Origin: Paragonimus westermani
Lineage: Eukaryota > Platyhelminthes > Trematoda > Plagiorchiida > Troglotrematidae
Assembly (NCBI GenBank): GCA_008508345.1
Contig: QNGE01000876.1
Location: 25,210 to 89,209, forward strand
DNA length: 64,000 nt
Direction of reading: 5' to 3'
The notes beneath the pieces were generated by a model. It was not told the origin of the DNA and did not search any database. It saw only the letters and a program-made list of their open reading frames with translations. The position numbers were made by a program, and so were the translations under genes. Below are positions 1-60,300 of this stretch, one piece after another (within the stretch, counting starts at the first letter, position 1; each line of letters starts with the position of its first letter).

Positions 1-750
1 GCGGATCGAGATAATCGCGTGATAAATACGGCAGAGATACGGGATGGATCGTTGGAGGACAGAATGACATATAATGGCTTTCGCTACACGACGGAACTGA
101 TACATGGTGTCTAGAGCGACTGGAGTATCCTCAGAAGAGTATGGTGTGCAAATGAGTGTTTCCGTTTCTTGTCGTGCTCAGACGCTTAAGTAGTGTGTTG
201 GTTTCTCCAATACAGTAACCTTTCTGTTGTCCGCTTTCTGGATTCACATCACTAGTATCCGTTGCGATTAGACAAACAAAACTGGGGATATTATCTGAGA
301 TCACATATTGGGATTCGGTTAGGCACTCTGTGGTATCCGTCTACCTGTAATGAGAAGTCGTCCCGTCACCAAAGATGCATTGGGTGCATTGACGACTCAG
401 TATAGCGCGGTAAACAACAAGATAGTCAGTTTAGACGACGAGGCGCGCTTACAGGTCAGGCCTGAGCGCTTTAGTTTACATTTCACGACTTATCACACGG
501 TTTTGTCTCCTGATTTGGATTTCCAAATGAGTTAATTGGACCAGTTACTCCGAGTTTTATAAACGACCAACCCCCATAAGGGATAGTTAAACGATTTGTT
601 TACTAACCCAGTCCGAAATGGAGAATGGCAACTGAACATGAAAAGTGCAAGTCCCTGATCACCAGTTACATTCAGGAGAATGTGTGACCGCTCCATGACC
701 ACGCTATCCGAATGTCAAGACTAAGGGTTCTGTTGTCTAAATTCAGATTG

Positions 751-1022
751 AGATCACAGTACTCATTAAACCTGCAAGGCGATATTTTAGATTACTGATG
801 AGTAGTCGGGGATTTGGTTTATTTTCAAGCTGACCATCACTCACATTTGATGGCAGCGTTCCCATTCAGATAGACTTTCCAGCCAGCCTCTTTCGAAAAG
901 TAGCACTAGACTCGAGTTTCCCTCTCATTCGAGCGATGGTCAACTTGAAAATAAACCAAATCCCCGACTACTCATCAGTAATCTAAAATATCGCCTTGCA
1001 GGTTTAATGAGTTCTGTGATCT
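751..1022. repeat. 88-base inverted repeat with 96-base loop
   Basis: Arms 751-838 and 935-1022 are reverse complements with two mismatches by my alignment. The loop (839-934) is a reversed copy of the 3' end of the hammerhead element. Transcription across it would give a long hairpin. Confidence 0.9.
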
Positions 1023-1256
1023 CGACCTGTCTCGGAAGTCCTAATCGCGGGGTTATCGATTGGAGTTAACAGGCAGTAACTGTGTCTCCTCTCGAGACGA
1101 TCGGGCAACCTGATCATTGCTCACAAGCGAGAGTGGTTGAGCGTTCAGATTTGATGATTCGGTCGTGCCTAATGTGAGGTCAATGGCGCAGTGGTTAACA
1201 CGGTTGCCTCATGATTGGAATGCCCGGAGTTCAAATCCCGGCCGTGGCAAGGATAT

Positions 1257-1300
1257 GCACTATGACGAGCTCTAATGAGAGCGAAACTCGAGTCTAGTGC
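1257..1300 (+). pseudogene. Hammerhead ribozyme with a core deletion (copy A)
   Basis: The region keeps helix II (GCTCT/AGAGC with loop AATG), GAAA, the ACTCGAGT palindrome, the GTC cleavage triplet (cleavage after 1294) and the helix I strands GCAC and GTGC. Compared with the copy at 23829, one C is missing before TGACGA, so the invariant C3 of the core CUGANGA is lost. It is predicted to be inactive unless helix I slips, which would still place A at position 3. Confidence 0.75.
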
Positions 1301-3092
1301 TTCTTCTCGAAAGAGGCTGGCTGGAAATTCTATCTGAAGGCGAACGCTGCGATCAAATGTGAGTGATGGTCAACTTGAAAATAAACCAAACCACCGACTA
1401 CTCATCAGTAATCTAAATTCAGATTCTTTCTGTAGTTTAGGTGAAAACACATGGGTTGTCTTCTTACCTAAGGACAAATTTTGGGTGCACTTATAATTAG
1501 TGTAGGACGTTCCTATGACTCATCAACATAGACGATGTCACTTCTAGCGTGTTGCTACCAAACGGGCTGTCAGAATTGTTTTTCTATATCTAAAGTGAAC
1601 CAGATGGTGACTGATAAGAATACGGTGCACCGCAAACTCCTAATCCTAACAGCCCACAGTACAAGGACCGTAGGGAGGGAGGGTATACTGAACTATTTCA
1701 GTAAAATTATCGCAGATGTCATCTCCACTTCCTCAACTGCGTTTTTCAATCGTTTAACGTTTGGATGACTTTAGAAAATTGTGGCAAATTGATGTTTGTC
1801 TTCGGTTTAAGGAAAGACGGTTCATGGAAACACTATATTTACAGTGTAATAACAGACAAAACCAGTTTTTCCGTCGTTTCACTTTATATTTGATATTTCC
1901 CCTTTTACTGCCTATCGTTAACTCCATGTTCGTTATTGGATGTCTGAGTGTGATGAGACATTTTACGAAATGTCCCGAAGTAGTTGAGGTCAATATGCAC
2001 AAACGACCGCTACAAGAATCGAAGGCACACAACATGTGCACAACATTTTAAAACGCAATATTTCTTTTCACGGATGAGAGGTAATGTGTACGGAAACCTT
2101 ACTGATGGTAGTTCTTCAGATTCACGTCCAGATTGGGGCCATACACAGATATTAATTTGCGAAATTCTTGAGCGTAACATTAAGTCAATATGAACGGTTG
2201 CCCCACTTAAACACGGTATCCACAAAATTTAGGTGATGTTTTTTCTTTCCGCATCTCAGGTTCTGTTCCCCCTCCGCATCATCTGGTAATGCATAGCGTG
2301 TGTCAAGTAGGACTCATATTGGTTCATCAACAGACCTCACCAAGAATGCGCAGACCATAGGTACAGGCGAGGTTACTGTTGACTGAGAGCCACAACTCTC
2401 AATTCATCTATGACCGAATGAGACCTGTGGACCCTTGTATAATTTTGTGTGAGATGCTCGTTAGGAAGCGGTGACTTCTTTTCTCTGAGGGAGAAGCAGG
2501 ATTTACGAACCCTTGATTAAACGATTCGTTTCCCGGTGCTTGTGTGCCAACTTATGTTGTTCAGTCACACTGAAACAAACAGGTCGGATGCCGGCGGCTT
2601 TGACATGACAGCACATCTCCGCTTCACTTCAAACTGTGACTGGCAGTACCTGTTTGCATACGCCCAAACTGATTGCATCATATTGCTTCGCTCTGGTGAC
2701 CCTGACTGCATATGCTTATGTTACCAGTGTTTCAAACTTACACTCAAAGATCTGTTTTCCGGTTGAGGTTTAGAGTCGTCTCAGTCTTTGGTTTGTTTCT
2801 AATTCCCAATAACAGTTCACTAACTGTCAGTTATTTCACACTGTTATTGATACGAGTATACTAGCGCCTGTAGCGTGTCATCTGCATGATGTTGGATACG
2901 AGGGTGGTCCTACACATTGCATGGAAGAACATAACTCAATATCACGAGTAAAGTAGTACACTTTCCAGGACAAAACACTATGAGCGAAACGACTGCACGT
3001 AAGACAGGGATACAACAAAACGAATAATGGCCAGCTGTCTTGTTCTGACAGGGGCGGTAAATATCAGTATGACTATAATTCAAATCACGTAC

Positions 3093-21300: not shown

Positions 21301-24300
21301 AATACGTATCTATGCCTGTACTAAGAACTGAATTCCACAGTTCACGCTTTGCAGGTGTGTAGTTTAATGTCACTCATGTCAGATATTGGTGAACTGTTGC
21401 ATTACATGGTTAAAGCACAGTCACTGAGGTCTGTTCAGCTTGCTGGAACTTGTCAATAGGAGTATTCGTTTTGCGGACTCGATTTAACAACCCAATCACC
21501 CGGAATGTTCAGTCGGGTTAACTATGTTACAGCAAAAGCAACTAGTGTGTCGTTATTCAGTCGGCCGATAGCATGCTTTACAAATTTTCAGCATACTTAG
21601 CGCTAAAACATTTGACAGATTGTCGGTTTACAATATTTTTCGGGGGAAAAGCGAAGACCAAGATTATGGGCATGGTGACCATGGGAGTCTAATGCTTGCA
21701 CATTTAATTTTCCTGCATACATAGTACTGACTTGAGACGGCCACTCACAATCACTTCAGACGAATGCATGAAATGTGAACTAGTGGGACGTACTATAATG
21801 CTGAATATCGAATCAGGTTAATTCTGATGCCTTGTGGTCAATGTGTGTCTGGCAGCTGACGAATTCGGTAGTTTGCGTGAGCCCGGGACGAACGAATTAG
21901 TCTACGCGGTCACAATGCAAACTTGTTTGAGTTGAGCCAACTTCTATGGGTGCAGTCGTTTTATAAGTTTGTTCAATCGATTTGAAAAGGTTTTTCGTAG
22001 GTCGGAATGAAAACCTGTCAATTTTGAATGTTAGTTTTTTTGTAGACTTTTCAACTTTATATCATATTCACTTTTTCTACTACGGTTCATTGCTGTTTTT
22101 GTCTAACAGGAGGAAGGTTGTGGTTAACTTTTGACAAACCGTTTTATTTATATCTCTAATCTTATGGCGCTTGTTACAAAAGTATCGTACAAGAGTCAGC
22201 AGAGTCGAAGCATCATGTGCAGAAACAGATTTGAAAGAGTGGTTGTAACTTTTACGAGCACATATTCGGTTAAAAACCTTCCGAAGTTTATAGATTAGAT
22301 AGGAAAGGTAAACCTGTTAACAAATTACGTAACAGTGTTGAAGAGAGACTAGCAATACTGCCGACTAGTTGGATGAGTCCAATTGGCCGTGTGTCACAAG
22401 ATGATATCACTTCTTGCTAAGAGTTCCGGGAATATAACCGTGAAGCAGCATGCCCGATACAGTCGACTGTTTAAGTGAATGATAGCATGGGTAACGTCTA
22501 AATTTAACGAGATGTCATTCTGAGACTGGGGAAAAATATTACCAAGTAAGTTGGAAGCTGTTTGACTGGTTTGGAAATCGGCATGGATATTGATACAATG
22601 GAACTAACTGAATTAACAAAAATATCCACCAGGCTACCAATCTAAGTCAGTCAATCTCACATCTAGACATTTGCTGAATTCAGATTCAGACGACGGTATT
22701 CAGACCATTCTACCTCTTTCGGTAGTTCATCTTACAAAGTTGACCCTTGATCGTTGCCAAGACAGGTTGCATTGTACATAGAAATACCACCCGGAATCCT
22801 CATACTGGAATATTTCACAGCTTACTGGAGGAATTTCCGTTTTGGAGGTAACAAGAAGAGTAGAAGTATTTGCACCTGCATGAGCTCCGTGGCTGTTTGG
22901 TGTGGCAGATGATTAATGACAAATTGGTTTGGTATATCATGGGCGTTGTGAGAAATAACCGTCGATTAATTTAACTTACAGCGGATCGAACTGTTTTTCA
23001 TTCAGAAGCTCGAGTAACATACGACGATCCAGTGTCATAAGAGAGTTACCATGATAGAGACAACAGTCACACCATCCTCTCATAGTTACTTGATATGAGT
23101 GATTTTCTCCTTTAGTCAGGACGGAAAATAATCACAATTTTCAATCAGTTGCAGTCAATCCAGTGCAAGTCCACTGGTCAAAGCCAATGTGACAATAATC
23201 ACTCACTGTTCGGAACATTGTACAAATTTATGGGCCTTGTCCGAGGTGAACCGTGTGTGTGTGTGTGTGAATTATACGGACTGCTCGAGTATGGGAAGAT
23301 CTAAATGGTGCGCAGACTGATTCTTTTCCCACAAACACTATATTGGATTACATCGTCTGATGTGGGTTGCATTGGTCGTTACCAAAATCCCCCACTCAAC
23401 AGGCTTTGACTAGCTAACAGAAGCTAACCGAAATACTATGTACATACCTACTGACGAGAGACCCCAACGACATGTGATTTTATTACACAGTATTGATTGA
23501 CTTCAATCGACTCAAATTGAAAATAAACCGAATCTCCGACTATTCATCAGTAATCTAAACTATCGCCTTGCAGGTTTAATGAGTTCTGTGATCTCGACCT
23601 GTCTCGGAAGTCCTAATCGCGGGGTTATCGATTGGAGTTAACAGGCAGTAACTGTGTCTCCTCTCGAGACGATCGGGCAACCTGATCATTGCTCACAAGC
23701 GAGAGTGGTTGAGCGTTCAGATTTGATGATTCGGTCGTGCCTAATGTGAGGTCAATGGCGCAGTGGTTAACACGGTTGCCTCATGATTGGAATGTGCGGA
23801 GTTCAAATCCCGGCCGTGGCAAGGATATGCACTACTGACGAGCTCTAATGAGAGCGAAACTCGAGTCTAGTGCTTCTTTTCGAAAGAGGCTGGCTGGAAA
23901 GTCTATCTGAATGCGAACGCTGCGATCACCCATACGGCTAATTACGAATACCAGTTATGCATCAGTTACTCATCAGCTCGCATTTTCTCCTACACGTAAT
24001 CTCATCCGTATACTGTACTGCTCACCAAATGTGGACCAGCTCGATACTGGCATACGCAAAGAAGAAAGGAAGCAAATTCATACTGACTAGGTTGTCCATC
24101 TCTTTTGTCAAGTCAAGGTTGTACTAGCCAGGCAATCTGTCTCAGCTGTTTCTGATCGGATGTTTGGTGAACGAATCGATTAGTTGATGGTGGAAAAATG
24201 TATCCTAATAACTGACATTTTCCAATACTTTGAGAATAACACAAGAACAGTCTATTTGTTACGACGTTAACGGGTTTCAATCAGGTCGGATCGATTTCGT

Positions 24301-27300
24301 TAATCTCTGTGTTAACAAAACGACTCCAGTACATGTGGAAGACGATGTCGTTTCAAGTACAACTCACCACCAATATGAGCTGTAAACGGAGAACCGGGGA
24401 TGTGACGTTCCATGAATTTGATAGAGATTGTATAATCACCAGGAGCCAGCGGAAGATAGCTGACACTACACGTACCATTCTTATTATCGTTGCATTGTAT
24501 TTCGGCCTTGGATGGTCCTTCAACTGATAACGACAGACCACCTGGGAAGAGCGAGAACAGAAATGTCATGCAACACTATGTCTAGAGGTGGCACTTGTCC
24601 ACAACCAAGAAGTGCTTGAACAAAAACTGACACCAACACACTTATTAACACACAAAAACCAACTGTCTTCAAAATCCGTAATGTTGATAGGCACGTTTTG
24701 AACAAGGGGTTCGGGTAAGTGTATATCCAACTGGAATTCTGCTACGTAGAGGAATCCGTTCCCACCTGCGATTTAATGAACAAATGAATGTAAAATTGGT
24801 CGTGCATCACAATGAACGATGAAGTTTTACATGACCACTTGAACCTATCTAATGAATTACCTGCACCAGCCTCTTTGGTCACCAGAGTGAAGTCGGCCAG
24901 TTCACCAGCTCGACCATAGGATAGCCCAGGCCCGTAAGCTGTCACAACACCTGAACCGACAGCTTCCACATAGAACCGAAACGGGCTGCCGGGGATCGGT
25001 TGGCCATTGTAGGTGATTTCTAGTTCATGCAGTCCAGGTTCGTTTGGCTGGAATTGAGCAGTTACCGTTCCGTCACCGTTATCGATCAATGTAGGTTGCA
25101 TCGTACGTCCCGACGGTGTGCGAACCAGTCCTGCACAATGATGAGAGAGACATGGCTTTAACCAGAGTTTAAAGTCATTCGTGTAAAAGCGAACGTTAAG
25201 TCTGATTGTTCCGCTTAGACGTCACTCTATTTCCAATGACTCTGAATGAAAATTTTGGATTTAATATCCTACGGTATGCCGTTATGATGCGTAGCTTTCT
25301 CCAAATGCTCTGGATGACATCGAATACAACTCATTGTGGTCAATGGAGATGAGAGGTAACTCACACTCTCCGAATAAATTCATGGTAGACACATCTGTTA
25401 AACTAGACCGTAATCCCCACAACAGCTAAGGCAAAATTTTATACTTGCATGAAACGAACCGCGTATAAACTGTACATAAACTGCGTTACTGGCCAATTAT
25501 GTCTGATTTACCGTGTTTCTGTTGCCGTAAAATGCACTGATACAAATCCCGTGTAAAGCAAACACTGTACAAACGTTGTGTAATCCACGGACTCATCGGC
25601 CAACCATCTGTTGGTGCACGTTTACCGAGCACGATTGTACAATGAAACTGGATGCCACCCTTCGTAGGCAAATCCACAGTGATTTCTAGCCACGTATAAC
25701 AAGGAAGTGTAAGAGACTTCTACGTACTGAGAAGCGACTGCTATGAACGTCTGTTGTGGAGGTCAGCTTATGTTGATCACGTACCAAGAGAGTTCCACCT
25801 GTATACAGCTATTCTAATAATTTTTCATCAGTAATTAAGCCCTTTTAGAAAGAGCTGTATAATGTTGTGGAGAAACAGAGTGATCTGCGGCAGAATGTCC
25901 CTGCAAAATTTCAGTCCTTGTCTTATTGATTTATATATGTGGAGCGTAGGCATCAGTTCAAAAGGCTGCATATATCAGGGGTTAGTTTATTGTTGAGGGG
26001 ATCACCTACTGTGCACGAACGATTGATGGCATCCGTGTCCAGACTAACTTGTCACAATGACCGAAAACACTTGGGTTTTGAGGCAACACTTGAGGTTCCA
26101 CTTATACACGTACTGTCTGCATTAATCTGGAACCAATGTGCACAAGCAACAAGTTAATACTGTGTGGGATTCGACACAACCTCATACAATTGTGAACAGA
26201 CTACAAACGTATGTGATCACAAGCGGTCTGACTCTCCCATGAAAATGAACTTTTTATGCGCCATTGTCGTCTTGATGAACATGTAGTAGAACGACAGGTG
26301 GACGGGCGGTTAGTTCGCCCATGTGTGACGGCTCGTTCTCTATTGTAAGGTTACCTTACAATAAACGGCTCATTACGTGTGTGAATGAGACACCTTGTAT
26401 TGTTTAAGAGCACGCTGGACCAGTTGTGAAGATGATCACAAGAACAAGCTAATCAGCATCCTAGCACCACTCGATGTAGCCACCAGAGCTTTCGGAAACA
26501 GCTGTTTGGCCAACAATTCTTCAATGGCTCGTATACATTCCTAATGGTTTGTATCTTTGGTCTTTCCACCTTGAATGTCTACGTACAGTGTTCTTGTGCG
26601 GTAAGGTCTTCCTGAGCCCCTGACTTTAACTAACAAGCTTTGGTTCTTCCAAGTGAACTCAGGTGACTCGAATGCGACTGATGTATTCTTTTCCCGTTAA
26701 GAATTTGAAGGTAGAAGAAATTGAGCTGGTATTGCACGATATTTTTCCGTTGGATTTTTACAAGTACATACAACAGACAATTTATCCATCAGTATGATAA
26801 ATTAAATACGGCAGAGAAGCCAAGTGTCAGAGTTCACAATTATAGTCAATATCGCGGTAACGACAACCGTGCATGCGGTTGTCCCTGAACGTACAACATA
26901 AGTTTGAAAATCCGAATAGTAACAGCTTCAGCATAATGCACTGTTCGCCTGACTTTGAGTAGATAATGCAAAATGCCATAGCAGGATTGCACTGGTGTTG
27001 CATCATTAGGATGTGATGTGCGATGGATGATGCAGGCTCTTTGTTTCTATGCTTGTCTATGACGTCATGGGTGTTTGTGTGCTCTGTTTATGAGCCCACT
27101 TCGGACAACGCTCCATGACCAGGGGTCTTAACAACCACGCAGTTCTTTTTAGCAAGGTGGTCCACATCTACGTGCATATTCGTAGATAACATTAGGGTTA
27201 GCTGACTCGGATACCGGTTGTTTCATAGAGGACGTTGGAATGGGGAGAATTTTGAACACAATCACTGGGACGAACACACATATGTTTTCGCGACAGAACT

Positions 27301-39300: not shown

Positions 39301-42300
39301 GCGTGATTTTCAATACGTGGCCTTGTGTTTGTCGAAGCCAAACTGTCTATATGACTGCTGGAGCAAGCAGGCCGTGATAACTATAGGCCGAACGCAATAA
39401 CAGTTACAAACAATTGGAGTTTTTTCGGTTCAAACTTTGCAAGAGCAAAGCAAATTTCTTTTCATTAGAACAAGCCTGCACTGTTCACACTTCCTGAATG
39501 AATAAATGAATCAATAGAATGAGCAAAAAATCCACTGGTTAAGACGATCTGTCATGTTTGGGGAAACAGTAACATATCAGACGTTGGGTGGGATGCTATA
39601 AGGCTTACACAAATTTCAAAGTCACCATCCTGATACATATATTGGCAGTTTACTTTGAAGTGTACATTTTTTAAAATGTAAACATACTTTGTCTTGTACT
39701 GTTAAGAAGACACTGCAACAGATGTATCCATCACCTGACTGTGAGTAATCGGTTGGATCGACTGAGACCAAAAGTTCACCATTTGTGACCCCACAGTTGA
39801 GAAGACAATATTCTAAACTGTAGGCTTTCAAACGACTAACGAATTGTAGATTAATAATCAGTATAATCCGAAATATAGCTGGTTGACTAGTTGGCAGTTG
39901 GCAACATCCATTTGTAGAATTTCAACCTCTGCTAGTCGCACACGGCCAAGGTGAACTGACAATCAATTAGTACTGCTTCGGTTGTTATAAGTTCTCTGTG
40001 AATGCGTTAATTATATGTTGTTATTTGATGCGTCCTGACCTAATGGGGACATTGAATTCTGCTCAATCTCTTGAGCGATCTCAACAATTTTACGCACTTT
40101 GCGAGAAAAACGCTGAGTAAACATTCCACTTGTTAGTAGGCTAAATACGTCCCATATTTTGTTGTTCTTCAGAGACTATGCTACACGACACATACACGCA
40201 GTTTGAGCCTTTGGCGCATATCCACTCTCTACTGCTAACCCTATTGTCCTTTAAATTAAGCTTCTTTGCCGTATACGACTTGCAAAACATGTGTGAGTGC
40301 ATTTAAAATTGCGATGTGCAGAGTTCGCTACTCTCCAAATACCGACTGGTTCAAAAGTAATCGTGGGACACATGGGGAATGATAGGTAAAGATTCAGTCA
40401 CGCCATCTCTTTTTCTCACTGTGGCCGTTCGTGTTTCTTACTGGTCCACCTACACAAATACTTCCACCGAATAATTGGTTTCACGTAAATCGGAACTAAT
40501 TATACCATTCGCGTCACTCGGCTGCAAGGTATTGCCACATTAACTGACCTATAAACGATACGATAACCAGTGCCTTAGGTTGGATTCTCCCCACCGAATC
40601 TACATGGTTTCTGGAAGGGTTCTGATGCGGTAATTATATTACAGTTTCTCGGCTGGGATAGGATAAAATATCTCTAGCGAATCACTCAGCGACCACGTAG
40701 TGGTGATTTCCGATTGAAGTTATCTGTTTACCGTTCATTTTGTCGTTTGAATTAGTTAGCTGTTAATGCGTACCAAATTTCATTCATGTTTACTGATTCT
40801 AGCAGACAAAGTGAGTCTAACTTAAAATACTGATCTATCAATTTGAATTTTTATCAGAAATTTGGGTCATGCTCAGCTCAGATCCATGAATCGAGATCTT
40901 GTCATGTTCCTATGACTTGCTGTTTCACGTGCGATAGGTGGCCTTCGTAAAGGTCAACAGATACTGTCAACTTAGTATTTTTGTTAAATCACCAAATGGT
41001 ATAAATGTCTATGATGAAAGTAGAGCATATGCGTGAATATTTTCTGTAGGTTTTGATTCGGTACTTTAGAGAGAAACTTGACAAGTGGATCTGGATGTGA
41101 ACAACATCGGCTATCAGATCTCCAGGTTTATCATTATGTGATCATATCCTTAAGGTATTTGGTAAAGGTTGAACGGTATATACACATATGATGGGCACGG
41201 TAACTCATGCGAAACGACACAGTCCAGTCAATGTTTACTCACTCACATTGCTTTCTGTAACTTCACTACACTCTGTGACAAATGATGTTGTTTTAGACAA
41301 TTGATATTTTTCTTCAAAAAATGAATTCCTATTCAACTCAGTGGCACACATCTTCTGAGAACACTTTACAGAAACTTGTCTTCTATTATCCACTCATATT
41401 CAAGCATCACTCAGTCTGACCGTAAAACTTAGAGTTTTATTCATGAACTTTTTACAAACAATGAAATTAGATTATTAAATCCAACACTTAAGTTAATTTT
41501 TAACGTTTATTGTAGCTGTATAACCTGTTTTGACTGTTCGTATCACAATTTGCGCCTACAGTTTCTATCATATACCTTCTGGATAGCGTAACTTATCGCA
41601 TTACAAAATACATATATATTTCTTGTCATTCTGTGATATGAAGAACTTGAAATTTTGCGAAATACTATTTAATGTTGACTTTGTTTAAAAGTCTGCAATC
41701 CCGATCTTCCATCGTTCTTATATGGATATTCAGCGCATATTTTTGTCTAATCAGGGGTTGATTAAAATGGGTTTAATTTAATCCAAAATCGAACCTTCTG
41801 TTAATTTTTGGTTACTGATGACCTGATCGTAAAATTTTGTAAAAGTAACCATGCTGTCCCCCAATTCATTTTGCTAAGTGTCGTGGATCACACTGCGATG
41901 GGTTTCCCAACGAACGCGATTACTCAGTAGATAGTACTGGTCTTCAGAATGTTATTTATAACGTTATTAGAACGATTGGTTGATTTCGACTTTTTTCCTT
42001 CAGGTGTCTAGAGCAATAGTATGGTTTTCATGGTAAACTTTACATACGGCTTGAGCTTAAATCTATGAATATTCTTTTGGTGGTCTCCATAGGCGATACG
42101 GTAACTTTCTATTAACTTCAGTTCAAAACCACGCGATTAGTATATCCGAGACAAGTGGAAATCTTGGAATTAATTAATTCTACTAAGTAATAATTCTAGG
42201 TAACCAATGAACAATCGGGGATTTTCTTATTTTCAAGTTGAACAGCACCCACAGTTAATAGAGGGATTATTGGATAGGGTTAACTGACAGTAAATGTGTC

Positions 42301-45300
42301 TCTTATCCAGACGATCGGGCTATTAGAGTACTGCTCACAAGTCGAAGTAGTTTGACGTTTGGATATGATGATACGGTCTTGTCAAGTATGACTTCAATGA
42401 CACAGTGGGCAATACAGTCGCCTTTGGAATGTGTCTACGGAGTTGCGGTCTCAGGCACTGACAAGGCTATGCATCACCGACTAGCTCTAACAAGAGCAAA
42501 ACTCAGGTCTATTCTTTCTTCTCAAAATAGCTAATTGAAAGTTCTCTTTGATTACCAAACCTGAGATGGAGTTCGTGTAATATTTACCTCGAAACTGACA
42601 AAATCCTTTAACTTTCGTCAGTATTCTACAGGTCCTTGAGTGGACTATCATTTTTTCCAGTTACTTTTTGAGTTGACCTTAATATAGGAATGTTTGCCAA
42701 TGTATCTGTCCAAATGATTTGCATTCTGAATCACGTGGGTAGGCAGCCTAACAGTATAATTCGAAAATATCCCAGTGTCATTTGACAACGACCGCACAAT
42801 TATCGCAGTGAAAAAGACTTCGCGAACAACACTTACACCGGTCGGTATTTTTCGAAAAGACATTAGACTCTAGTTGAACTTCCGCCAAATCTCCTCCTTA
42901 GTGCATACCTTTGCTGCGACTGGGTTAAGAGGGCTGGTCATGTCTTCTTGGGGGCAACTGTCTATTGCGTAATTAACATCATCTTAGGCACGACGAAATC
43001 ATCACATGCAAACACCCAGACACATGTTTAGTTTCCCGAAATGTTTTGCTTTTTTCCGCTATTAAGCTGGAACCGATCAGCCATTTATATGGTTGGCCTG
43101 CAAACGAGCAAGCATCGACCAGAAGAGGTTGGGAAGGTTGATGCTGATGAGAACCAACTAGGTCGAAGCAACTGTCCGCCACTTCGCTGGTGATCACTGG
43201 GACTAACTGTTGGCAAATACTCAGACTGCTGAGTAGTGCCCAGTTCGTCCGATCTGTTCGATAGGAGACAGAACAACTGTTCTGTTAACTACAACCGATG
43301 GCCCCATGACTGGGACTTCTTTTCCAGTTGACATCACAAAGCTCATTGGCTTACTGAGTTATATTTTGATTACTGATGTGTACTGTGAAATTTTGGCCGT
43401 AACATCGATGTGCATTACCGACGAGCGATAACAAGAGCGGAATTCAAGTCTAGTGCTTTCTGTCGAAAGAAGTGGCTGGAAAGTTTATGCGAACGTGACA
43501 ATTACGATCAGTTGCAAGTGGCGTTCGATTTATGAGAGCCAAAATTTTCTACTACTCATTAGTAATCTGCTTCACCATGCAATATTTTTGAAACAGCTAA
43601 TCCATTGAATTAATGCTCTGTCCAGCAGACAAATAACACTGGGGTTATTGATCAGGATCATTTTTAAAACTGATAGAGCGCCATCAACAAGGCAGCGGTC
43701 TTGAAAGATAAAAACATCACACAAAAAACACGAAACTAACGGTGACTTCAAGAAATTCTGAACCATATTCTTTTATAAACAATCCGGAAAATTAAAGCGA
43801 TGCTGGTAGTCACTCTGTTTCATGTGGTCGTGCAGTTTTTGTCAGAAAAAGTTTCGGAGGTAACTATGTGATTTCTAATACTACGTTTCTACCTTCTGTT
43901 GTATAACGGAACTTGCAGTGTACATATGTGTAGGCGAAAATTGCGATCTACGCGTAAGCTGCAGCGTAGGCCTTAAACTGCATTGATAACGCTTAGAGCA
44001 AGCCTACCGTTGTGAGCAGTCGAGACTGTTTGAGAAAAAAACACGAGAGATCAACAAATTTCGTGCATTTCCACATCTTTCCTTGTTAACTGTTTAAATT
44101 TAATCTTAAAATGTGTTTCCAGGAACACGTCAAAAATTCATTGAAGAGAATACTGAACTTAAACTAAAGAGTACGTATACATTGATACATTAGTTCAAAA
44201 TTGACAAGACGTTGAACAAAACTAAACGTGTTACAAATGTACAGCCGTATGGCTGCCAGCACCAAAATTTGCGCACATTCATATGGCTTCTGTTTACTGA
44301 AATAACTATAGTGTATCAGAAATATCCTCAATGTCTGTCAACTAACAATCATGATAAGGAATTTTGTTAGAGTTTAGGGTTTGAAAGACGTTGCGTATTG
44401 TCTTGATGAACAGTTGCTTTGGCTGTGACTGGAGTTGGGTTCATCTGATAGCAGACAACATGTGATTACAACACAGACGACGAATGGTGTTAACAACAGT
44501 GTAACAGAACCAGGCAGAATAGGGGAAGACAAAAGTTTTCATCGTCAGTATGTAATATAAACACATAGGTAAAATGCATTCGTGAAATCGGTTAACCGTT
44601 CGCCATTTACCGTAAGCTTTATCACGTTAAAGTGTTTGTAATGCAAAATGCGCTTCAACGAGAGTTTAATTGTATGCAAGAAATGATCAATTCCAACGGA
44701 CAGTCCTGTGCTTTAAATATCCACTGAATACCGATCTTCCTCACATGTGCCAACAGCCGTTAACTGCAGTTATGTGAATTTATCAAGGTTCATGGTAGGT
44801 ATTTAAAGTGCGGCAATTTGTCCGCAAGTCTTATTCGAAGCCAACGCGGATAATTACACCACGCAGTTCTGTAACATGTGTTAGTTCACTTATGACACAA
44901 AACAAGCAAAATCATTCAGATCACGTTTAAACAGAGTGAAAACACGTATGCGGGGTTCTGTATTTCTGTCAGTATTCTATCTCAGTATTTCAATATTTCG
45001 TTTACTTATTTGTTCGAAGCTTATTATCGCAAATTGACTTGTTCTATCAGGCATAACAAACAAACAATGGTTTCAGTATGATGCAATTTCTCATCTTTCC
45101 CTAACCTGATTGTATTACAGACGCTTCACTTGCCCTTCTTCTGTACACTTCCGCTCTGAGGTCATTCAACAGTTGATGACAATGTTTACTGTTTAGGGTA
45201 AAACACATCAGTGATAAGGTGAAAATCGTCACTGTGCCACTTTTGGTACACTCTATCAGACAGAGTAACCAGCTTGCTTGTTACTAAATCGATCTGGTTG

Positions 45301-51300: not shown

Positions 51301-54300
51301 GTGATACTCAATACTTATGTGCTGGTTGAGGTCTATGTGAATTAGAGCTGCATGCATGAGTAATGTAAACTACCTTCATTATCCCAATAATTCGGGTAGG
51401 TCCAGCGGAAACATAATGGGTTAGGGAATCCAGGTATATTTTAGCTGTCATTGTAGTGATAAGGTGCGATAGATCTGCAGAATGTTACTATCTAGGCCAA
51501 GTCGTATGCCCACGGTAACATGCCATTCACTTTGTTCACGGTTGTGTAAGATTTCTTTAAGTAGCGGAAATGTTTGATTTGTATTGTAAAGAATGAACAG
51601 ATAAGTGATGATGTTCCGGTTGATGAGCCAGGTGAGTTCGAGAAGAGTTTATTGAACGTATACCGAAGTCCGTTTGTCAGAAGTTTGCAGTTATATGTGA
51701 AACTAGTTTCGTCAAACAGTGCGACACTTACGTGTACGGGAGCGTCTCCAGCCTGTGACGCATCCACTGTGAACGTAGCTGGCTGTTGTGCCCTGGCACC
51801 ACGTGGTTCCAATCCTGGCCCATAGCATCGCACGCGACTTGGATCGACTCTGTCACGAATGGGCACTTGGAACGGGCTACCTATAATATTAAATAGAATA
51901 ATACCATCGGTTATATGACGTGCGTAAGTGGTTCCTTCACACTTGGTGTGTGTTTACCTTTAACGAAAGCAGAATCAACCAGATTATCAAGTAAACGAAT
52001 AGTTCAGTGTACACATGCGTAAGAGCATTAAACATGTTGTCAGTCCCGATACATCAATTCCTTTTCACACGGATACTGTTGACTGTTTAATGCTTTGGAT
52101 CGTGAATCAACCTTATTGTCGTCGCCAGTTCTTAGTGCGCAGTAAGTTGCACTGAGTGTCGCGTGGCCTATAGAGAATTACAGCTTAGCAAGCAGATCGA
52201 CTTTCCATATAGCCGTGATCGGAAAGCGGTGCGAGATTCCGGTTTCCTTGCTGTTAGGGTTTGCCAATTTTACCTATCAAAACTAAGATTTAACCTCTGT
52301 CCACATTATTAAGGAGCGCCCGCGTTGATCATAATGTCATTTACTACATGTTAAGCACAACAAAACTAACGGTCCTGATCGCTTAGCCACATATTAGTTG
52401 ATAGGTAACGCTAACGTTGTCCAATCACTAACATGGGAAGCCTATTAACGTGACATCACTTATAATCAAGGGCCACTTTTATTAAAACTTCTTAATAAGG
52501 TAGTTATCACACACTACCTTAAAATAATTCATAGACGTTTTGTTCACTGGCGGACAGCAGGTACTTTGGCTGCTATAACTCAAACGTCACCCGTAGTTTT
52601 ATTTACAGCTCTCACATTCAGGTGAGTTTCTAGTCATCCCACAAACGCGAGCGGTAAAGTTCATTTCCGTCAGAGTAGCACATGTACTAGTGGTTAGCTT
52701 CAGCAGTAGAGAAACTCGAGCCATCTGATGTTTTTTGAAGTGGGGTACAGCGGCTTTTGTAAGACGTAATTGGTGTTCAAGTTGATATGAGCTCTGTATT
52801 ATATATTGCATGTTTACCTGAATACAAACTGCAGAATCCTGAAGGAGGGTGTGGTACAGTAGCTGCACACAGCTTACAAAACACATACTGTATGGTACAA
52901 TGTTCTGTAACGCTTCAGTGGGATAGGCAACTTGTACACCCTTGTTAGAGCTCGTCAGTAGCGCTTTCGGGAGATATTCCTATTGACCAGTTCACCACTG
53001 AGTTCACACCGGGCATGATTGCATTATCATATGCAAAGGTACAACCCTATTCTGTTGTAAGTAATGACCAGATATTCCGATAATCCAGATAGACAGCACA
53101 GTTACTGTCTGTCAGCTACAATCACAAACTCAAGATAGGCCGAAAACTTCAATTGTTATTGAATCTGCCAAGAATAATATCTTGATTACTGATGTGTAGT
53201 CAGTTTCAGCTCAAATACCACTCATACTTGGTCATAGTGTGCGTACACGAAGGCGACTGTCTGAAGTTTTGCCAGAGTTCAAAGACTGCGATCAAACAGG
53301 AGTGATTTTAAAATTGAATATGAGAAGATCCCTGATTGCCCATTAGTAACCTAAAATATCTTCCAACAAGTTTACTGAGATCGGATTTTTCAACCCGTCT
53401 AGGAAGTCTCAATGTCGTGGTTATCGATCAAAAGTAGCAGGCATTAAGTGTATCTCGTATCGAGACGACAGGGTAACCTGACCAATACTCATTGCTGGAA
53501 GTGGTTGAGTGTTCAGGCTTGTTTCTTTCTTTGAAAGGAACTGACAGGAAGATCCACCTGACTGTGAAGGCTGCGATCAAACATGAATAATATTAATCCT
53601 GAAACTGAACAAATCTGTGATTGTTAATCTGACAATAATGTACACCACTAAAGAAAGCACCAGCAGTGATATTCAGTGAGTATTACGTGGCTGTTGTAGA
53701 CCACACTCTTGGGACCAACTAAAATGGTTAAGACGCCATTTGCATTTCGGAAATTAGCACATTGGGCAGAATATACGAAACATGTACGATACCCTCTGAA
53801 GTACACTGTCCAGCTTCGAGAGTGGGAGAACTAATCCATTAGTTGGCTCCATGTAGTGTCACAGAACTAAAGCGTGTTTGAAACAAATTTGTGTGATGCT
53901 TATGTTGGTCAATGTTACGCTCACCTTCACTTCATGTGCAATGAACATGCATGTAGCTTGGGCTAATAAGTACCACCTGATATTGCGTTTGCCCTCAATC
54001 AGTGACACTCCGATTAAGTAATTCACTTCTGACCTAGTGTGTTTCGACCTAACCCTAATGATCTTCACTTCAACTTTATTGTCTTGATAATTCCATTTCG
54101 ATTACGACATTCCTGATAAGAACTACCGAGATCGGTTGAGACAGACCATTAGAAACATTTTGAACCCCGTGGTATTTCTCTGAATTATTGTGAGCTTTTA
54201 AGAACAACTCGACTGGATAACGTTAAAATTTTTGGAAATAACTCCTCTGAATATCAGTCATTAAAAATGACAAATCCATGTTTGATTAGTCCCGCTGTCG

Positions 54301-57300: not shown

Positions 57301-60300
57301 TTTGACTACGGAAATTGTAGCATGCGAAGCATCTCTCAATGAGAATAAACATAAAAGCAATCCGAACACAAACAGGTACAGTCATATCATATGAGACATT
57401 GAAAGCCAGATCTCATGCAATGCATGCGTCGCGGACGAAGGCTTCTTCCACCGGTGTCTCAGGATTATCGTACCAGTTGGTTGTAAACCAGGCCCATAGG
57501 CGTGGACACGTGACACGTCCACGTGCTCGCGTCCAGGTGGTGCTACACGAACTGGGAACGGACTTCCTTTAATGTGAACGTCCTTGTACAAAACATTCAC
57601 CACGTATGGTCCAGGTTCCGTGGGCAGATATTCAACGCCGCATGTTCCGTCACCGTTGTCGTTATAGTTGATTTTCGCCTCTGCTGGGCCCTCGATTGTC
57701 ACACTGAGAGGAGCTGGTGGAGCATCACGACTGTCAATGGTGAAGTGAGCTGGACGTCCGCTTGTTGCGTGATACAACCCATCACCAAAAGCTCGGACCA
57801 AACCGGCTGCCTCAAGCGCACTCATCGGAGCCATAGCTGCTGCATGCTGTTGGCCTGCATTGGACATCGGATAGACCGGCTCGTGAATCGGTGTCTCCGG
57901 CGATGCGTGTGTTCGGAATGGGCTACCTTTAACCGGTATCCCGCCCACATCAATCGCAACTGTATGTGGTCCAGTCACCGTTGGAGTGAAGCTCGGTGTG
58001 AATCCGTCCACTGACTCCGCCATAGTGCACGGAACACGCATGCCTGAGGGGGATGTCACAACGACATTCGGACGGGGTTTGCTGTTCGATGGTGGGCCTG
58101 CACCGGCTGTGATCACGTCGAATTCTGTTGGTTTTCCTACTGGGATATCTATATGGACATATGTGCGCGTCGGTTTTAAAATATGACTAGCTCATGAAAG
58201 TACTTTAAGCAGAAGAATTTATCCTTAAGTTGGATCAACCAGAAAATGGGAGCCAGTGGCGGTTTTGACATTCACAGTGGACTTCAGTAAAATCAGCTTG
58301 CCATACAGCTTAAAAGTGCGTAGGTATTTCTGTCAGAGCACCTTTATAACTAATACATATAGAATGGCTGAATACATTCATGCGACGTAAAGGGGTGTTT
58401 GGTGCCAATTTTTTTAAAAGACACCGATCACATCAGGTCGCGTACTTCCATATACACTAACTTCTGGAAGAATCAATACATTTGCACCGCCCCATTCAGT
58501 TCACTGCAGAATAAAAACAACCCTACACATTTGTAGAATCTGTTTACAGGCCGTAAACATTCCCCAAATCTCATCCAAGGCTGCAAGCAGTCATCCGGTT
58601 TTATTCGAAATTTGGAAGGACGTCTTCCACTCTTCAGAAAGACAAGTTGGTAACGTCATCGTTAATCCTATTATGGTTGACCTAGTTAAGAACAGTTGAA
58701 GTTAGTACGCAGTCCCTAGCGAGCAGCGGACGGGACTGTGTCTCAGTTACGGACCGGGAAATTTTTTTTTCTAAGAGTCGCAACGTTTTCCAAGATATAA
58801 ATATGACTGTGTTGACAGTTCATAAGGTTCTACAGAACAAATGGCGAGCTGTTACTCAGATCAAGACCGAACCTGTTAAATATGTGGACAATCACCAAGT
58901 CTTTGGGGGAGAACTCAGATTGGGAAACCAACGAAAAATTCTCAATACTGGATGTCGATATATAAGAGACCTAACGCCCATAGTTTTGCCGCATCAACTT
59001 AAATGATAGTACAAAGCGAATTTGGATAGTCTAGCTATTTCCGTCGGAAAGCACAGCATGCTGAACGAACTACTTTCTAGTAAGGTGCACTCCATCGTAA
59101 CACACAGTAGTATCACTGGAAGCTTACTATTTACCAGAATCCCAACAAAAACTGACGGACTTGCCCCTGGCTATCAATTTAAATTCCAAATGATGATGCA
59201 GAATTGCTTTCCAGTAAAAGCAGAACAGGAGAATTAAAATCGTTAAGAAAAATGGCAAAAGTTACGGTTAAGGTCGGACTCGAGCTTTCCTTGGCCTGTG
59301 ATTAAGCTAACACGCACAATAAATTATAACCAGAATGGGACCTGAGGACGAACATGAGGAGACCGGGAATTCCATTTCAGTTAAGTCTAAGACGAACATA
59401 TTGACCACAGAACAGTACTGCAAGCGTATGTCGCTGGACGTTTAGATATAAAATCTCGGTTGCGTCTAATATAAACTCATTGGTGTAGTGGCTTACATAG
59501 TCGCCTCAGATGAACTTGAATCGCAGTACAAATTGCAGTCATGGTGAGCATATGGTTTATTGGATTTGTCTGATAAATGTGGAACTCGTGTTTTGAAAAG
59601 AACTCAGGGACACGCCTATCTAGCACCGAAAACTGTGCTCGTAGGCATATGTTGTTGAACTTATGATAATCAGTTTCCTGACTTCTAACTAGTAAGTACA
59701 GTTTTATTGGTCATCTGTTCAGTTGCCCCAAACGAAATACTAGTTACGATTAACATTTACTTGAATGGCTAATCAGAAACTTATAAACCCTGTGTGTTTT
59801 CCTAACCACTTGATTTCGCCAAGTGGCGGAGAGGTGGCAAAACGAGTGACCTCACCACTAGGTGCAGGAAATCTAGCACATACAATCAGCCGTTCTGTAG
59901 ACACAGCTTCAGATTGACTTCGTCTTAGTAACTAGGGAAGATGGTATTAGGGACCAAAACTCATTCTAACACTCACTCCATCTAAACACAAGTGTTTCAC
60001 GAAGATGAGAATAGCTAACCATTTAATAAGGTCGTGATGTGCCAAGAAAAAGTTTGAATAATATGGAAAATTAATAACAGGGCAACACCTTTGGTGTCCG
60101 TTATTTAGATACCAGGAAAAGTAACTCAGAGAAAGGATTTCACTGACCAGCCCCAAAGGTGGCTGCCAAAATCTTATACCGGATAATGTACAATGTTCCG
60201 GTTTACCAGGATATTTTGACAGAACAAAGTTGACTCTATGTGTGAAGGCTTACCATCATGGTTTACCTGATTGTTGGCAGACTGCTTTAGAGATTGGTGT

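Follow-up and report, generated by a model that had tools for sequence, protein, structure and literature searches.

A hammerhead ribozyme of Paragonimus westermani resides in a 431-bp non-coding repeat likely inserted by a Penelope-like element

Introduction

The stretch of Paragonimus westermani DNA analyzed here (64,000 nucleotides; the window) contains a hammerhead ribozyme that sits in a 431-bp non-coding retroelement with tRNA-like boxes, probably inserted by the reverse transcriptase and the endonuclease of a Penelope-like element (PLE). We consider PLEs the likely movers of this repeat because its copies have two fixed ends and often occur as opposite-facing pairs, which is the PLE pattern. 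PLEs have been named as a strong candidate for mobilizing animal retrozymes in the accessible text of PMC7229834 and likewise as a likely candidate in that of PMC7761336. Published insertion-level evidence for a PLE-driven insertion of retrozymes was not found in the one open-access library searched, and the family described here is young and numerous enough to address, from insertion ends alone, what moves ribozyme-bearing short animal repeats.

Results

The hammerhead motif in the window

An initial annotation of the window had placed an intact hammerhead inside a SINE-like repeat at 23829..23873 of the plus strand and had proposed a search with the Rfam Hammerhead_1 model as a check. This annotation was correct, as an Rfam search of the window gave a match to RF00163 (Hammerhead_1) at exactly these positions, scoring 34.7 bits (gathering score 34) with an E value of 6.2e-5 for 64 kb, and this was the sole match in the window above its family cut-off. 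A match to RF02275 (HH9) spans 23817-23890 with 35.3 bits, below that family's own cut-off of 52. Direct reading reproduced the annotated helix I of six pairs (GCACTA at 23829-23834 with TAGTGC at 23868-23873) and helix II of five pairs (GCTCT at 23842-23846 with AGAGC at 23851-23855), the latter closed by the tetraloop AATG, while helix III is very short with 2-3 pairs. The core is complete, with CTGACGA at 23835-23841, GAAA at 23856-23859, A15.1 at 23859, U16.1 at 23866 and C17 at 23867, which agrees with the cut that had been predicted after 23867. Both by its score above the cut-off and by its complete core, the motif is a type I hammerhead, for which self-cleavage is predicted.

On the same strand, an A-box-like sequence (TGGCGCAGTGG, 23757..23767) of a tRNA-like head and a B-box-like sequence (AGTTCAAATCC, 23800..23810) precede the ribozyme. 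Both were matched by eye to what we take to be the box consensus, and a promoter role is presumed for them. The B-box-like sequence stands 18 bases before the motif start at 23829, as had been described. ARAGORN did not call any tRNA in the window. A TTTT run at 23877..23880 (plus strand, by eye), 9 nt beyond the predicted cut, is a possible Pol III stop, and Pol III might halt there, ahead of the copying sites described below.

The 431-bp unit and its copies

The repeat that carries the ribozyme has a non-coding unit of 431 bp, and its copies are single, partly tandem or multi-unit. Matches to many loci and a spacing of 431 bp across several units of a tandem array on contig C223 delimit the window copy to 23512..23928 (plus strand; 417 of 431 bp), and no open reading frame of at least 100 amino acids overlaps 23512-23928. 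Unit numbering (R) begins just past the second of two preferred 3' ends (site 2), so that R203 and R247 are the first positions of the two boxes, the hammerhead occupies R276-320 and the cut is predicted after R314. The ends of the window copy are atypical (R390 and R375), and no target-site duplication (TSD) is visible around it. A second young copy at 744..1417 is a fold-back, composed of a minus arm (744-934, 95% identity) and a plus arm (931-1417, 98%), and its ribozyme at 1245-1318 is without the core nucleotide C3. Comparison with the unit also revealed two old fold-back copies at 42083..42530 (about 72% identity) and at 43230..43568 (70-72%), and an old copy in pieces at 52983..53615 (66-72%).

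A DNA search of the 823-Mb assembly gave at least 45 matches with 87-100% identity when 40 of 92 candidates were scored, and the 5' part of the unit gave 1300 first-look candidates genome-wide, which were checked in part. Identical 431-base units are common to five loci (L013, L015, L017, L023 and L028) and, since a unit is identical at separate loci, the repeat moved recently. Animal non-LTR retrozymes are described in the accessible text of Cervera and de la Pena (2020; PMC7229834) as tandem units that measure 150-450 bp, carry a type I hammerhead and have TSDs of more than 4 bp. The repeat has this layout of a short, tandem, non-coding unit with a type I hammerhead, and its TSDs (8-14 bp) are longer than 4 bp as well.

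Two preferred 3' ends

Insertion ends were counted in 63 loci, the best scorers in two DNA searches, which provide 90 outer 3' ends. The fold-back rate, the lengths and the 5' ends given below describe this sample and are not genome-wide figures, because loci were picked by match score; this choice did not select for the pairing of the two 3' ends. Left out of the counts were L001 and L009 (the window copy), L024 (a mixed old array), L025 and L026 (the array of L024), L072 (identical to L022) and L081 (identical to L038). Where a locus had no piece at 85% identity, the limit was lowered to 75%.

At these loci, two sites hold 76 of the 90 outer 3' ends. They lie about 90 and about 117 nt beyond the predicted cut, 27 nt apart, and their ranges, which were defined after the data were seen, together comprise 33 of 431 positions. 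Site 1 (R396-411) accounts for 39 ends and site 2 (R425-10) for 37, and 14 ends lie elsewhere, one of which (L096) belongs to an arm cut by the edge of the examined stretch. Most ends at site 1 (30/39) are found at unit positions 400-405, that is 86-91 nt beyond the cut at 314, and most of those at site 2 (24/37) at unit positions 430-2, 116-119 nt beyond the cut. An earlier tally of all arms with at least 88% identity (n = 77) had given 30 ends at site 1, 36 at site 2 and 11 others, and single-arm inserts (n = 36) divide into 17, 14 and 5, respectively. A consistent poly-A or simple-repeat tail after the 3' ends was absent from the 35 rows read, among which L021 alone looks A-rich.

Copies show 5' truncation and partial tandems, and arms extend past the cut site and past one full turn of the unit, up to 991 nt. 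Their 5' ends are scattered and do not cluster significantly at the cut or at any other position (P = 0.4). An accumulation of these ends just after the cut was considered and rejected, as 10 of 66 lie within the 31 positions that follow it, and the copies thus bear no direct trace of ribozyme cutting in the genome. Three arms (L083, L088 and L075), too few for a pattern, have their 3' ends at unit positions 312-322, near the cut at 314 and not exactly there. In the score-picked loci L091-L095 and L097-L099, the 5' ends are at unit positions 129-153, which may reflect a structural stop or a selection effect.

Fold-backs join the two sites

In 27 of the 63 loci, a second copy on the opposite strand lies on the 5' side, head to head with the first and with the 3' ends outward, an arrangement that we call a fold-back. 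Both ends could be assigned in 18 fold-backs, 17 of which join site 1 and site 2 (P = 1.4e-4, two-sided binomial test against one half), and the exception, L086, carries site 1 at both ends; the remaining 9 of the 27 have one end unassigned and stand outside this tally. Twelve loci were fetched after the pairing rule had been seen, and both fully assigned fold-backs among them obey it, with one more having an unassigned end.

TSDs of at least 8 bp were detected in 19 of the 63 loci versus 28 of 2000 mismatched pairs. They measure 8-14 bp, with exactly 12 bp in 9 of the 19, and are commoner in fold-backs (14/27) than in single-arm inserts (5/36; Fisher P = 0.002). The fold-back at L084 sits within a PLE endonuclease gene, with GGTACTGA on either side, and in the sister PLE copy L070 this gene is continuous and has no insert.

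Templates of the copies

In a published general model for animal retrozymes, the element is copied round and round from a one-unit RNA circle that is made by ribozyme cutting and ligation, and we doubt that this model accounts for the present repeat. Tandem units, and arms that run beyond the cut and for more than a full turn, up to 991 nt, speak for it. Also, among the 13 arms in which two turns share an overlap of 200 nt or more, the turns differ by at most 0.8% in 3 (L031, L015 and L018), compared to 134 of the 2552 between-locus unit pairs; the turns of L027, which are 2.6% different, show 0 differences at 21 diagnostic sites, and all turn pairs together have a diagnostic mismatch of 0.215 versus 0.289 between loci. 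In contrast, turns differ by 2.6-16.9% in the other 10 of the 13 arms, and 7 of the 13 show differences at three or more of the diagnostic sites covered. At L010 a 12-bp TSD bounds the insert, but 6 of 21 diagnostic sites are unlike between its turns, and the arms with unlike turns at L013, L023 and L028 each hold a unit that is identical to units elsewhere. A nested insertion beside an older copy may explain some of the unlike turns.

The two arms of fold-backs were compared in the same way. All 10 comparisons with an overlap of at least 200 nt (8 loci) revealed differences of 3.9-13.7%, to which age contributes in the older loci, and a single RNA behind both arms was thus rejected as a general rule. 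In shorter overlaps, some arms are nearly alike: those of L017 differ at 1 of 110 positions and those of L010 at 3 of 145 for one turn. As the long-overlap arms are unlike, more than one RNA or unit was copied at several loci, which cannot be proven for every locus.

Since adjacent units often differ, a one-unit RNA circle cannot be the sole template, and mixed multimers, a change of template or insertion beside an older copy are needed besides it. Because neighboring units often differ in subtype, it is probable that many copies were templated by uncut multi-unit RNAs or that the enzyme switched templates. These results call into question whether the main function of the ribozyme is to produce a one-unit RNA circle that is then copied. 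The minimum-energy structure of the folded one-unit circle did not include the hammerhead, a result to which no weight was given.

Conservation of the ribozyme

An intact core was found in 63 of 78 copies from 49 loci. None of the 21 variants shared among copies in the 431 positions affects the 12 fixed core positions, and the lone one within CUGANGA is at N7, a free position. This pattern is consistent with constraint and is not a proof of it, because 12 positions would be expected to hold about 0.6 shared variants, and because the core positions, with a mean mismatch of 2.7%, are close to the 3.0% over the unit. The role of the ribozyme may be the cutting of multimers or a later step, the latter having been suggested for the protein-assisted ribozyme of PLEs (PMC11167929).

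Comparison with Penelope-like elements

PLEs form partial tandems and inverted pLTRs, and a tail of about 30 bp may be present at one inverted end (accessible text of PMC3846280 and PMC8969392). In P. westermani, the two genomic PLE copies that could be aligned (L070 and L084) each consist of an inverted 3'-end arm followed by a 5'-truncated forward copy, and the inverted arm lacks the last 21-23 nt of the forward arm. Similarly, the retrozyme fold-backs show a 27-nt tail at one of the two inverted ends in 17 of the 18 fully assigned cases, as described for one inverted pLTR of PLEs (PMC3846280, in part). For a purified PLE of Anolis, copying was reported to begin 111-118 nt into the ORF, with a hammerhead that cuts 26 nt into the ORF (PMC11167929). 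By our subtraction of these figures, the start lies 85-92 nt beyond the hammerhead cut, which is in close agreement with the 86-91 nt of retrozyme site 1. The Anolis PLE has two start sites, with the tail lying between them, and its enzyme cuts and extends both strands (PMC11167929).

The 431-bp unit is non-coding and so has no reverse transcriptase or GIY-YIG endonuclease of its own; the retrozyme is not itself an autonomous PLE but may work with one. In a comparison with one PLE, no autonomous PLE with a retrozyme-like tail was found. Counted by hand and by eye, the two ends of this PLE are about 36 and about 59 nt after a hammerhead-like core, versus 90 and 117 nt in the retrozyme. The L070 PLE tail was rejected as a relative of the retrozyme tail, since a fraction of 0.476 of 2000 shuffles aligned equally well. 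The hammerhead-like core at L070:6276-6304, read by eye in the PLE 3' region, has almost no helix II and is changed in the sister copy L084. A hammerhead of another family (family B, see below) that lies about 1 kb behind two PLE ends was rejected as a PLE part, as the similarity of the PLE copies stops before it.

The closest named relative of a PLE protein from the genome comes from Paragonimus (65%). The PLE fragment of L070 has no Pfam match and no relative of solved structure found by sequence; PF26215 is present in 8 of its 16 protein relatives, and two named relatives are from Paragonimus. The one Pfam match to GIY-YIG was discarded as a PLE endonuclease, because its open frame, by eye, resembles the host gene SLX1. 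In the six short pieces tested, no inverted repeats surround the other PLE fragments. A remnant at window positions 3541-3744 matches PLE proteins (tblastn E value 3.9e-9).

Discussion

Insertion by a PLE could proceed as follows. The tRNA-like boxes would drive, or help to drive, transcription by RNA polymerase III, and the hammerhead would cut multi-unit transcripts after the base equivalent to 23867. A dimer of the PLE protein would cut both target strands and begin copying inside the RNA. Site 1 would serve as the start for one strand and site 2 for the other, frequently with separate RNAs or units as templates, and the ends of the two cDNAs would finally be joined. One start site per strand is a sharp rule for testing on purified PLE protein. 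We tentatively propose, as a wider reading to which we assign somewhat less than an even chance, that the hammerhead SINEs of flukes are parasites of PLEs, that a complete insertion is two-ended with one strand for each of two fixed starts 27 nt apart, often from different RNAs or from units of uncut multimers, and that the conserved ribozyme would hence serve another job than making a template circle.

An origin as a tRNA-derived SINE that is moved by a LINE, with inverted copies made by twin priming and the hammerhead as a passenger, is improbable. The tRNA-like boxes (read by eye), the short non-coding unit and the TSDs are in favor of it, and Sm-alpha has been called SINE-like in print (PMC2770079, in part). 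However, a consistent poly-A or simple-repeat tail is lacking in the 35 rows, and pairing of the two ends in 17 of 18 fold-backs would not be expected. In twin priming, the inverted part and the forward part derive from separate segments of a single RNA, whereas both arms of the fold-backs hold the same 3' region and differ by 3.9-13.7% in each of the 10 long-overlap comparisons from 8 loci.

Spread of satellite DNA by recombination, with no present mobility, would be in line with the array of several units on C223 and with a schistosome relative described as satellite DNA (in a title cited in PMC7229834, seen in its accessible part). We give it very little credence, as the dispersed copies contradict it: the inserts at the examined loci are scattered, their flanks differ, their 3' ends fall at preferred sites, and 19 of 63 loci have TSDs. 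Palindromes are a common artefact of assembly or amplification, but TSDs of at least 8 bp in 14 of 27 fold-backs versus 28 of 2000 controls, the sequence differences between long-overlap arms, and the old, decayed fold-backs of the window make it extremely unlikely that the fold-backs arose in this way.

By layout, we assign the repeat to the animal retrozyme or Sm-alpha kind as a new and young member, with strong insertion evidence for a Penelope-type integration. As in animal retrozymes, there is a short tandem unit with a type I hammerhead and TSDs of more than 4 bp (PMC7229834, in part). In contrast to them, the 431-bp unit has tRNA-like boxes, since according to the accessible text of a review retrozymes seem to be without promoters (PMC7761336). 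Beyond what is described for animal retrozymes are the insertion-level support for PLE-type integration and templates that are often mixed multimers.

Sm-alpha carries Pol III boxes. The combination of a SINE-like repeat and a hammerhead is shared with Sm-alpha and Sj-alpha of schistosomes, a likeness of layout; about 38,500 and 5,000 hammerhead candidates are reported for the two genomes (PMC2770079, in part). The accessible passages on Sm-alpha and Sj-alpha, including those of PMC2770079, describe neither fold-backs nor two fixed ends for them. With PLEs such as Poseidon of Anolis (PMC11167929) and Penelope of Adineta (PMC3846280, in part), the repeat shares 5' truncation, partial tandems, an inverted arm, a short optional tail at one end and TSDs, and with Anolis Poseidon also the presence of a hammerhead. 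Unlike PLEs, it is non-coding and has tRNA-like boxes, and its hammerhead passes the Rfam type I cut-off, whereas PLE hammerheads are of a minimal kind (PMC6155905, in part).

A genome search with Hammerhead_1 gave at least 42 matches among 74 scored candidates, which include two further families. In the old family B (L039, L040, L042-L044, L046-L048, L051, L052, L054, L057, L060, L062 and L065-L068), the consensus of these 18 loci has an A/B-box-like sequence, identified by eye, directly before the hammerhead. In family C (L049, L055 and L058), a B-box-like sequence was seen by eye about 20 nt upstream of the hammerhead in L049 and L058, and L049 scores 47.5 bits with HH9, below the cut-off. 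The association of a tRNA-like head and a hammerhead thus recurs in the genome, because families B and C also have box-like sequences upstream. At several loci, family B copies occur in both orientations. Within the window, a decayed family B hammerhead with an altered GAAA was recognized by eye at 43140-43185 and is absent from the Rfam list up to an E value of 5. The window also encodes filamin domains on the minus strand (24742-25221, 51492-51953 and 57382-58191), with the ribozyme repeat nearby on the opposite strand, and the best named relative of this filamin gene is found in the flatworm Protopolystoma (64%).
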